Below the pieces are notes generated by a model, which saw only the letters and a list, made by a program, of their open reading frames with translations, had not been told where the DNA came from and searched no databases. 64,000 nucleotides of DNA, taken from Candidatus Desulfopertinax cowenii. Its GTDB lineage: Bacteria > Bacillota > Desulfotomaculia > Desulfotomaculales > Desulforudaceae. The position numbers and the translations under genes are program-made. The stretch lies in assembly GCA_001899445.1 (NCBI GenBank), contig MPOA01000002.1, positions 62,001 to 126,000 on the forward strand. Reading direction: 5' to 3'. This document shows positions 22,771-53,672 of the stretch, one piece after another; position 1 is the stretch's first letter, and each line of letters starts with the position of its first letter.

Positions 22771-22810
22771 ACAGATGAGCTGACTGACTGGCCGGAAAAC
22801 CGCATAGCAA

Positions 22811-22980
22811 GCGCCTGGACCTGGGACTCGGGGGGCGAGTACCAGGTTGACGAGGGGGAGGTTTATCGAAGGATTCGGCGGATGCCTCCCGGCCCTGGTC
22901 ACGGCCGTCAGCGGCGTTACAAAACCGCCGGGCAACCGGCGGGACAAAAGCGCCAGGTGACCGAAGGCAAAACGGGATCG
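22811..22980 (+). ncRNA. glmS ribozyme
   Basis: The leader of glmS contains the conserved self-cleaving core: AGCGCC at the cleavage site (between 22810 and 22811), then GACGAGGGGGAGGTTTATCGAA (22840-22861), TTCGGCGGATGCCTCCCGGC (22865-22884), and a 3' part with further helices to about 22980. Known glmS ribozymes cleave their mRNA when glucosamine-6-phosphate binds, lowering GlmS. The 3' boundary is approximate. Open reading through this region is not coding. Confidence 0.93.
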
Positions 22981-23016
22981 CAAAGCCTGGGGGGACGGGT
23001 GCGCCTTTGTCCCTTT

Positions 23017-23056
23017 GTCGGCATATGCCTGCTGTGCTTTTTGCCGGCATTTTTTA
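23017..23056 (+). terminator. Possible hairpin with T-tract before glmS
   Basis: GTCGGC (23017-23022) can pair with GCCGGC (23043-23048), followed by ATTTTTTATTT. It lies between the ribozyme and the glmS start. The stem is short and the loop is 20 nt, so this may simply be AT-rich leader sequence. Confidence 0.3.
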
Positions 23057-23085
23057 TTTGGCTTCAAAGGGGGTTTTGCGCAAAT

Positions 23086-24915
<1,830 letters not shown>

Positions 24916-51263: not shown

Positions 51264-51942
51264 TTGCGGTTGCCGGGTGAGCTGTCGGCTTTGTTGATTG
51301 CGGTAATGCTAGCGGGGCTCCTGGCCGCCGGATGCGGTGCCGAACCTGGGAGAGGGCTGGTCCGGTGGGCTGCGGGTGGAGGTGCCTGAGTACCACTCAC
51401 CCCACGACCTCAATGGAAACGGCGTGCCCACCTCGCTGGATATCGTGGCTGGTGCCCGGGGCGAGGTGGAAAAGCGCACTCGTTACAACGCCGCCTACTT
51501 CGCCGGTGGCTATCCCCCCGACGGCCAGGGGGCCTGCACCGATATCATCTGGATCGCCCTGCAGCACGCCGGGTACGACCTGAAAGCGGCGCTTGACGCC
51601 GACATTGCCGCTTTCCCGGAGGATTACCCGCAGGCGTTCCCGCCCGATCCAAACATCGACTTCCGCCGGGTGTCAAACCAGGTGGTCTTCTTTAAAAAGT
51701 ACGGTGTCAGCCTGACTACCGAGGTCAGGCCCGGCGACGTAGAAAATCTCCTAAAATGGCAGGCGGGAGATATCGTGGTATTCGGCCCGCCCTACGAACA
51801 TATCGGGATTATCTCGGACCGGCGCCAGGCCGACGGGGTACCCCTGGTGATCCACAACGGGGGTCCGGTGGCCAGCGAGAGCGATGCTTTGCGCCGCTGG
51901 CCCAGCCCGGTCACCCATCACTTCCGCTTCCCGCCGTGGTAA
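51264..51942 (+). pseudogene. DUF1287 lipoprotein, frameshifted
   Basis: From TTG 51264 (6 nt after AGGGGGA) one frame encodes a lipoprotein signal peptide, RLPGELSALLIAVMLAGLLAAGC. The DUF1287 domain (LNGNGVPTSLDIVAGARGEVEK, CTDIIWIALQHAGYDLKAALDAD, WQAGDIVVFGPPYEHIGIISD, HNGG) lies in the next frame from 51337 to 51942. The shift falls near CTGGGAGAGGGC (51346-51357). Either the gene is broken, the sequence has one base too many, or only the domain is made from GTG 51337 without export. The fragment 51040-51263 upstream has nothing I recognise. Confidence 0.7.
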
Positions 51943-51982: not shown

Positions 51983-52567
51983 TTACAGTGCCGGACCGAT
52001 AAGGTTTTCGGCCAGATAGAGGGTGTCCGCAAAGTGTTTGGGGCCCCAACCAACCGAACTGTGTTTTACTTTCCCCTCCCGGTCCAGGAAGACGCTCGTG
52101 GGGAGGCCCTGGACCTGGTACAGCCGGTGCACCTGCCAGTCGGGGTCCAAGAGCGCGGTTGCGGCCAGGTTGTGTTGTTTAATGAAGGATTCTAGCCGGT
52201 CCGGACGGTCGCTTGAAACCAGGACCACGTCCAGTCCCCGCTCCCGCCATTCGGCCATGTAGGGCTGCAACTGCAGCGCCTCGTCAACGCAAGGCCCTCA
52301 CCCCATAGAGAAAAACAGCATCAGCACCGCCCGGCCTTCGAAGTCGCCCGGCACGGTTACCTCCCCGCCGGCTAGGGCCGGCAGGCGGAACGCCGGTGCC
52401 GGTTGGCCCGGTTCCGGCCAGTCCAGGGGCGGTTTCAGTTCCGACTCGGACCCGGCCGGCGCTGGCGGTTCCTTGGCGCCGGGGGCTGGGTCGCGCGAAC
52501 CGCACGCTGCTCCCAGGAATAACAGGCTCAGCAGGGCGACGGCTACCAGCAGGCTGCGAAAACTCAC
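51983..52567 (-). CDS. TlpA-like thioredoxin lipoprotein, probable selenoprotein
   Basis: One frame runs from GTG 52567 to 51983, interrupted only by TGA at 52300-52298. Before it: a signal peptide and lipobox (LLSLLFLGAACGS), a Pro/Ala-rich linker and PAFRLPALAGGEV with GRAVLMLFFSMG. After it: GPCVDEALQLQPYMAEW, VVLVSSDRP and GLPTSVFLDREGKV, the rest of a TlpA/AhpC-like fold. TGA thus takes the first Cys position of CGPC (U90-G-P-C93). A stem-loop follows 20 nt later. Selenocysteine insertion explains all of this; a nonsense mutation is the alternative. GTG follows GGGGTGA. It is last of a three-gene redox module. Confidence 0.82.
52264..52277 (-). promoter_or_regulatory. Candidate bacterial SECIS hairpin
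   Basis: In the mRNA, 20 nt after the UGA, GCUGC pairs with GCAGC around the tetraloop AGUU; outside, G-C and G-U pairs continue after a C-C mismatch. A G within the first two loop bases and a loop 16-37 nt from the UGA are the published properties of bacterial SECIS elements, and both hold here. Confidence 0.6.
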
Positions 52568-52641
52568 GATGTCACCCCCTTGGATGATGGTATTGAAACC
52601 CTTGGTTTTGTTCTTTGAAAACTTAACAGTGCCCGGTCTCG

Positions 52642-53550
52642 TCAGTTGTTTAAGCGGCATTTAACCGCGGCCCGCGGTTTAGACCGCTCGGTGTCCACAG
52701 GCTGGTCCTGCGGCGCTGGCCGGGCGGTGAAGGCCAGCGCCGCCGTGGGGCAGGCCCGGACGCATTCCAGGCAGCGGACGCACTCCGGGTGGTTCGGCGA
52801 CCGGTCCACCGCCAGCTGGAGCGGGCAGGCCTCTCGGCAGGTGTGGCACTGCCGGCAGCGGCCGGCATCATGCCGGATCCGCCATAGACTCACCGGGTTG
52901 AACAAGCCGTAGAAAGCGCCCAGGGGACAGGCCGTCCGGCAGAAAGGTCGATACACGAACCGCATGGCCACCAGAAAGGCGGCCAACACCGCCACTTTCC
53001 AGATAAACAGCGGTCCCATCAGCGCCCGGAGCGCCGGGTCCCGGAGGCCCACCAGCAGCCCCGCTTCCAGCGTCCCCGCCGGGCAAACGTAGGTGCAGAA
53101 ATAGGGGGCACCCAGCCCGGTGCTGCTGTTGATCAGGAGCACGGGCAGGAACAGGACGGCGGCCAGCATCAGGTACTTGATCCAGAGCAGCGGCCGGGGC
53201 ACCGGCAGCCGGCAGACACGGGGGCGGGCCAGCACCTCCTGGAGCAAGCCGAACGGGCACAGCCAGCCGCACACCAGGCGCCCGCCGAGCGCGCCGGCCG
53301 TGGTCACCACCCCAGCCACGTACAGGGACACGCTGTGGCCGGACATGGCCAGCATGACCTGATAGGAGCCAACCGGGCAGGCGCCCAGGGCGCCCGGACA
53401 GGAATAGCAGTTGAGAAAGGGGACGCAGACCTGTTTGACCGGACCCTGGTAGATCCGCCCCTCGGCGAACCCGGTCAAATGGGCGTTGGCGGCCAGCGCA
53501 GCGGCGAACTGCACCAGGCGCCGCCGCGGGTTTAACGGATGCCGATGCAT
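52642..53550 (-). CDS. Polyferredoxin-like 4Fe-4S membrane protein (NapH/NosR type)
   Basis: A 302-aa membrane protein with several helices and cysteine clusters on both faces: CVPFLNCYSCPGALGACPVG and CGWLCPFG, then CTYVCPAGTLE, CRTACPLGAFYG and two C-terminal ferredoxin motifs CRQCHTCREACP and CVRCLECVRACP. It could move electrons across the membrane to the lipoprotein encoded downstream. ATG at 53550 (MHRHPLNPRRRLVQF) overlaps the preceding miniprotein gene by 19 nt. No good RBS is visible, suggesting coupling. Confidence 0.88.
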   Translation of the reverse strand: MHRHPLNPRRRLVQFAAALAANAHLTGFAEGRIYQGPVKQVCVPFLNCYSCPGALGACPVGSYQVMLAMSGHSVSLYVAGVVTTAGALGGRLVCGWLCPFGLLQEVLARPRVCRLPVPRPLLWIKYLMLAAVLFLPVLLINSSTGLGAPYFCTYVCPAGTLEAGLLVGLRDPALRALMGPLFIWKVAVLAAFLVAMRFVYRPFCRTACPLGAFYGLFNPVSLWRIRHDAGRCRQCHTCREACPLQLAVDRSPNHPECVRCLECVRACPTAALAFTARPAPQDQPVDTERSKPRAAVKCRLNN

Positions 53551-53672
53551 TCCAGGCAAATCATCACGGCTTTCTGCATCACGTCCGCTGCCTCGCCGCG
53601 GGCCAGGCCGGCCAGAAGCATGCAAATTCCGGCGGCAGCCAGGCCATAGGAGATCCAGCGCTGGTCTTTCAC
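53532..53672 (-). CDS. CD1871A family CxxC miniprotein
   Basis: A 46-aa protein: VKDQRWISYGLAAAGICMLLAG forms one membrane helix, and the C-terminus has MQKAVMICLECIGIR with the CLEC (CxxC) motif that defines this family. GTG at 53672 follows GGTGGAG. It is immediately followed, with overlap, by the 4Fe-4S membrane protein gene. The family is usually found beside such proteins, which supports the call. Confidence 0.82.
   Translation of the reverse strand: MKDQRWISYGLAAAGICMLLAGLARGEAADVMQKAVMICLECIGIR

Follow-up and report, generated by a model that had tools for sequence, protein, structure and literature searches.

A predicted selenocysteine-containing TlpA/ResA-type lipoprotein in a conserved gene unit with a NapH-like membrane polyferredoxin and a CXXC mini-protein

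The window analyzed here, a stretch of 64,000 nucleotides from Candidatus Desulfopertinax cowenii, carries on its minus strand a gene (51983 to 52567) for a TlpA/ResA-type lipoprotein of 194 amino acids, with a GTG start, a TAA stop and a predicted selenocysteine (Sec) at residue 90 in the motif UGPC. Directly before the GTG lies a strong ribosome-binding site with its spacer, GGGGGTGACATC (52568 to 52579, minus strand), and the frame opens with a putative signal peptide ending in the lipid-attachment residue Cys22 of LGAAC (52502 to 52567, minus strand). The lipobox was assigned from its motif, and Cys22 was invariant in the alignment of homologues. Translation confirmed that the sole in-frame stop between 52567 and 51983 is a single TGA (52300 to 52298, minus strand) at the first position of the CxxC motif, as the preliminary description of this DNA had stated; reading it as Sec yields FFSMG-U-GPC and the full 194 residues. 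That description had also claimed that similarity continues in the same frame on both sides of the TGA, and this proved correct. The Pfam AhpC-TSA match (PF00578; residues 53 to 169, E value of 5e-22, 78.5 bits against a cutoff of 26) crosses the TGA, as does a match to the Redoxin domain, and in the homologues the region after the UGA is intact, neither unrelated nor degenerate. The coding composition flanking the TGA showed a GC3 of 0.79 and 0.79 and a GC2 of 0.57 and 0.38. The window has 17 TGA codons in a U/CxxU/C context with open stretches on either side, and of these only the one studied here displayed a high GC3 together with a clearly lower GC2 on both sides. The convergent neighbor (51337 to 51942, plus strand), which has a DUF1287 domain (158 bits), lies outside the unit described below.

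We searched the class and the phylum for homologues with an alignment and then read the loci found. UGA occurred at the same codon, in the same place of a UxxC motif, in 27 homologous loci, ranging from the organism's own genus to other families of the phylum and including single-contig genomes. When the read-through protein was compared with 60 relatives, TGA was present in seven of the eight best non-self matches. One scan of a collection of genome contigs gave two relatives, both with the UGA. A plasmid collection yielded nothing beyond generic proteins such as TlpA and Bcp, none of which reached 60% identity. The ratio of Sec to Cys forms is skewed toward Sec because the search alignment was built mostly from Sec forms. 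A tree of 51 proteins separated the 27 Sec rows and one Cys row from the rest by a branch with 98% SH-aLRT support. The Cys row (genome G023) nested within the Sec clade and grouped with the Sec rows of family f17 (91%), suggesting that in this lineage Cys most likely replaced Sec. In G023 and its congener G033, Cys aligns to the UGA position; at residue 90, homologues therefore carry one of the two residues, UGA or Cys, that the preliminary description had named as support for a selenoprotein. In G033 the Cys form (G033:C1:1730140-1730644) is split by a frame break, reflecting either a pseudogene or a sequencing error.

Downstream of the UGA lies a bacterial SECIS-type hairpin, GCUGC-AGUU-GCAGC (52264 to 52277, minus strand), whose AGUU loop spans 52272 to 52269 with its G at 52271. 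The preliminary description had placed a stem-loop with a G in its loop 20 nt after the UGA; the hairpin indeed starts 20 nt 3' of the UGA and is near-invariant in nucleotides across the phylum, being present in all 27 Sec loci with no more than two changed letters each. Standard pairs filled 135 of the 135 cells of the stem across these loci. A compensatory change was seen at one pair only (C-G to U-A in L067), with a wobble at the same pair in two loci, and shuffles did not single the hairpin out by covariation (64 of 500); with so little variation in the stem, the covariation is slight. Folding energy did not differ from chance either (z of -1.5, with 18 of 200 shuffles as good) and, since it is not significant alone, we took conservation as the evidence for the hairpin. 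In 24 loci, synonymous codon identity at codons +7 to +11 after the UGA was 0.84 to 1.00, an excess of 0.74 to 1.00 over expectation, while the excess at the remaining codons from -15 to +44 was mostly near zero and never above 0.6. The constrained stretch runs from the third base of codon +7 to the first base of codon +12 and thus coincides exactly with the hairpin, which codes for LQLQP (LQVQP in two loci). As the synonymous constraint is confined to the hairpin, LQLQP is probably a by-product of the RNA. The RNA signal would then dictate a protein motif: LQLQP stays with the UGA and is absent where Cys replaces Sec, the G023/G033 lineage having IALRD in its place and no such hairpin. The hairpin 14-mer occurs once in the window, at this site, against a chance expectation of 0.01 with one mismatch allowed; Rfam at the gathering threshold gave no RNA family match at the lipoprotein locus.

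All four genes of the Sec machinery, whose presence the preliminary description had proposed to check, were found in the genome (1.78 Mb, 99.96% complete), so that a lack of selB or selC, which it had held to speak against Sec, does not apply. Besides selA, these are selB, which scored above its cutoff and adjoins selA on the same contig; selC, a tRNA-Sec with anticodon TCA; and selD, which scored above its cutoff and holds one in-frame TGA in its own coding frame. Formate dehydrogenase (TIGR01591), searched for as a second Sec marker, had no match in the genome, and selD with its in-frame TGA took its place as that marker.

These data bear on two readings in which the UGA would not specify Sec. 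One stop in an otherwise intact frame resembles a fresh nonsense mutation, and the gene might then be a pseudogene, derived by such a mutation or by a sequencing error from a Cys-containing TlpA gene. However, 27 loci from many families, single-contig genomes included, carry UGA at this very codon, the hairpin is under synonymous constraint and the coding composition is maintained on either side of the TGA; conservation thus refuted this reading, whose probability we regard as negligible. Just as improbable is a UGA that is reassigned or leaky, being read as Trp or by general read-through and not specifically as Sec. The open frame, and nothing further, favors it, whereas UGA serves as the normal stop of the NapH-like gene in the same operon and as the terminal stop of four Sec homologues of the lipoprotein, the UGA residue aligns with the catalytic Cys, and the genome has both the Sec machinery and the SECIS-type hairpin. 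We therefore rejected code reassignment and general read-through. On the evidence of the sequences, we consider it nearly certain that the lipoprotein gene encodes a functional selenoprotein and is not a broken gene.

An AlphaFold2 model of the lipoprotein, built from a ten-row alignment (pLDDT of 86.9), had ResA structures as its best PDB matches, with TM scores of up to 0.90, and DsbE-type proteins and Bcp peroxiredoxins ranked behind them. Sequence searches of solved structures agreed with this ranking, placing ResA and DsbE above the peroxiredoxins. Sec90 and Cys93 corresponded to the CxxC of ResA, and Glu96 to the Glu after the CxxC, which, in the active-site numbering of ResA, we take to be the position of E80. 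The predicted fold thus places the lipoprotein in the ResA/TlpA structural superfamily. With ResA, StoA, TlpA and DsbE it shares the fold, the position of the CxxC, membrane anchoring, the Glu three residues after the second Cys and the invariant Pro in a later GxP motif, but it has Sec for the first Cys, its apparent feeder is a NapH-like protein and not CcdA/DsbD, and it scored below every NCBIfam cutoff. Among the models that it did not reach were those for ResA (NF002854; 65.3 bits against 170), the WAxxUGC selenoprotein (NF041054; 28.1 against 300) and the SelL-related selenoprotein (NF040769; 36.2 against 120), and no curated NCBIfam model covers the subgroup.

The PF00578 domain (78.5 bits) and the UGPC motif are those of the PF00578 selenoproteins with UxxC, and the features of bacterial selenoproteins in general, namely, the Sec machinery, UGA or Cys in homologues and a SECIS-type hairpin with a small G-bearing apical loop, are all present. 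Peroxiredoxin (Prx)-like selenoproteins of the UxxC PF00578 type are an established predicted family (PMC1088965, PMC9312934, PMC13188914), and the preliminary description, which had called a Sec-containing TlpA-type protein unusual, overstated the case for this reason. Compared by description (type WP_010940744.1), the Prx-like thiol:disulfide oxidoreductase selenoproteins have in common with our protein PF00578, a thioredoxin-type UxxC and a bacterial SECIS just after the UGA; the subgroup studied here differs in being a lipoprotein, encoded in an operon with a NapH-like protein and a CXXC mini-protein, and in its near-invariant LQLQP hairpin. A "distant Prx-like thiol:disulfide oxidoreductase" of Syntrophomonas wolfei, listed among selenoproteins in 2006 (Table 3 of PMC1794560), is likewise a predicted selenoprotein of Firmicutes/Clostridia and, judging from the similar wording of that entry, may belong to the same family; the part of the source available to us describes no operon or partner for it, unlike the lipoprotein here. 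The selenoprotein is therefore of a known type, and it is the conserved gene unit in which it is encoded that deserves further attention.

The lipoprotein gene is the third gene of this unit, in which a mini-protein gene comes first and a NapH-like gene second, both on the minus strand. The first (53532 to 53672) encodes a 46-amino-acid CXXC membrane mini-protein of the CD1871A family (NF040920; 52.9 bits, above the cutoff of 32), which has ICLECIG near its C terminus and terminates in ICLECIGIR; here, this family is placed in a redox operon. Its gene overlaps the start of the second gene (52642 to 53550; likely start, ATG at 53550; TGA stop), which encodes a NapH-like membrane polyferredoxin with a Fer4_5 domain (PF12801) above its cutoff and two C-terminal 4Fe-4S motifs. 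This protein did not reach the cutoff of the NapH/MauN model TIGR02163 (64.4 bits against 213), and Pfam detected no FMN-binding domain in it. Across 23 related NapH-like proteins, the Cys residues of the N-terminal CX5CX2CX6C motif, of the CX3CP-type motifs and of the two C-terminal 4Fe-4S motifs were invariant.

A NapH-like gene adjoins 23 of the 27 Sec genes. In three of the others (L068, L094 and L097) a contig end cuts the locus; the fourth, L088, is a solitary second Sec copy (L088; L148) without the other two genes, found in one genome where the other copy is accompanied by both partners. With the NapH-like alignment as query, a search across the class led to 30 loci that we read, 29 of them intact. 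The mini-protein and a thioredoxin-like lipoprotein were both encoded at 25 of the 29 intact loci, and neither was encoded at the remaining 4 (L144 to L147). In L121 the contig ends just past the NapH-like gene, and the mini-protein is present. The four loci L144 to L147 contain a NapH-like subfamily that has neither thioredoxin-like nor mini-protein neighbors and is flanked by other exported proteins. Taken together, these gene orders indicate a conserved three-gene set around the lipoprotein. This setting is a less expected result than the selenoprotein itself, and the preliminary description had passed over both partners. A literature search, with most subscription papers outside its scope, returned no mention of CD1871A and no description of the three-gene unit.

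According to a published proposal, NapH-like proteins carry electrons through the membrane to partners on its extracytosolic side, which in that case are FMN-binding domains (PMC8238504). The protein studied here shares with these systems the PF12801 membrane iron-sulfur protein and a proposed extracytosolic redox partner, but it is paired with a thioredoxin-like lipoprotein and not with an FMN-binding domain. In the literature searched, we found no demonstration that a NapH-like protein hands electrons directly to a partner of the thioredoxin type. Many relatives without the Sec lipoprotein family have, as judged from coordinates, a ResA-type protein beside a DsbD_TM/CcdA gene, and DsbD_TM (CcdA/DsbD) is absent from the genome of the window. 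Among class members, DsbD_TM was absent from 13 of the 14 that carry the Sec lipoprotein and present in 50 of the 99 others (Fisher P value of 0.003, uncorrected for ancestry). A related second branch of this module is found alongside DsbD_TM in several genomes.

We propose that SelB and tRNA-Sec decode the UGA at 52300 to 52298, aided by the hairpin at 52277 to 52264, and that the resulting lipoprotein, with its ResA/TlpA-type thioredoxin fold, would sit on the outer face of the membrane, where Sec90 would attack and Cys93 would resolve. A donor in the cytoplasm or the membrane, ferredoxin or quinol, would supply electrons that cross via the iron-sulfur clusters of the NapH-like protein, and the CXXC mini-protein would probably relay them to the Sec-Cys pair, which would reduce disulfides, or possibly peroxides, outside the membrane. 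Within the three-gene unit the lipoprotein would act as terminal thiol/selenol reductant, and the unit would fill the role that CcdA/DsbD plays with ResA in other bacteria. We assign a probability of about 75% to this explanation as a whole, Sec decoding together with a three-gene unit acting as a surface reductase in place of CcdA. The Sec decoding and the conserved gene set are supported by the comparisons above, while the location, the electron path and the substrate are what we infer. As regards its parts, we moderately favor a NapH-fed extracytoplasmic disulfide reductase, and an obligatory relay function of the mini-protein can be suggested only tentatively. A similarly guarded view applies to the broader proposal that a three-part extracytoplasmic thiol-reduction system, made up of the mini-protein, the NapH-like protein and a thioredoxin-like lipoprotein of the Sec or Cys form, might replace CcdA/DsbD in anaerobic Firmicutes; in it, Fe-S clusters and not a thiol relay would cross the membrane, and two separate lipoprotein branches would bear Sec.

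Other functions of the lipoprotein have to be weighed against that of a disulfide reductase. It might be a peroxiredoxin-like peroxidase recycled by the NapH-like protein and the mini-protein, given that AhpC-TSA is its best Pfam domain match, that Bcp structures match after ResA and that Sec is common in peroxidases; its motif, however, is the thioredoxin-type UxxC and not the peroxiredoxin TxxU (a distinction made in PMC1088965), and ResA and DsbE structures outrank peroxiredoxins in both sequence and fold, so we regard this function as unlikely. Still less probable is a direct equivalent of ResA acting as a reductase in cytochrome c maturation. Although the closest solved relatives are ResA proteins, the System II protein ResB is missing from the genome of the window and also from G001, G004, G006 and G058, among other carriers, which indicates that the lipoprotein does not serve System II cytochrome c maturation here. 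The operon offers a testable role for two proteins of unknown function, the CD1871A CXXC mini-protein and the NapH-like protein without FMN, and points to a way in which strict anaerobes that lack CcdA/DsbD could maintain exported thiols in the reduced state. Typical gene callers would split the lipoprotein gene into two fragments and, since no NCBIfam model covers the subgroup either, this family of surface selenoproteins, which spans the phylum, is probably misannotated.

At some loci of the wider NapH set the lipoprotein is a Cys form, and at others it belongs to a second Sec branch (W[AST]TTUxxC..EMP), which was found in the same NapH/mini-protein unit at six loci (L130, L131, L132, L135, L138 and L140). 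The hairpin that follows the UGA in this branch is a different one, CAGCCCU-GGA-AGGGCUG, and showed matching changes on both arms in L135 and L140. A further candidate selenoprotein, below all NCBIfam cutoffs, is encoded in a genome of the same genus (L057:3497-4237, plus strand, G002); it has a thioredoxin-like domain followed by NHL-like sequence, and its in-frame TGA lies in WTYC-U-INC. Elsewhere in the window, a glmS ribozyme/riboswitch (22799 to 22965, plus strand; 101 bits) heads an open frame at 22882 to 24915.
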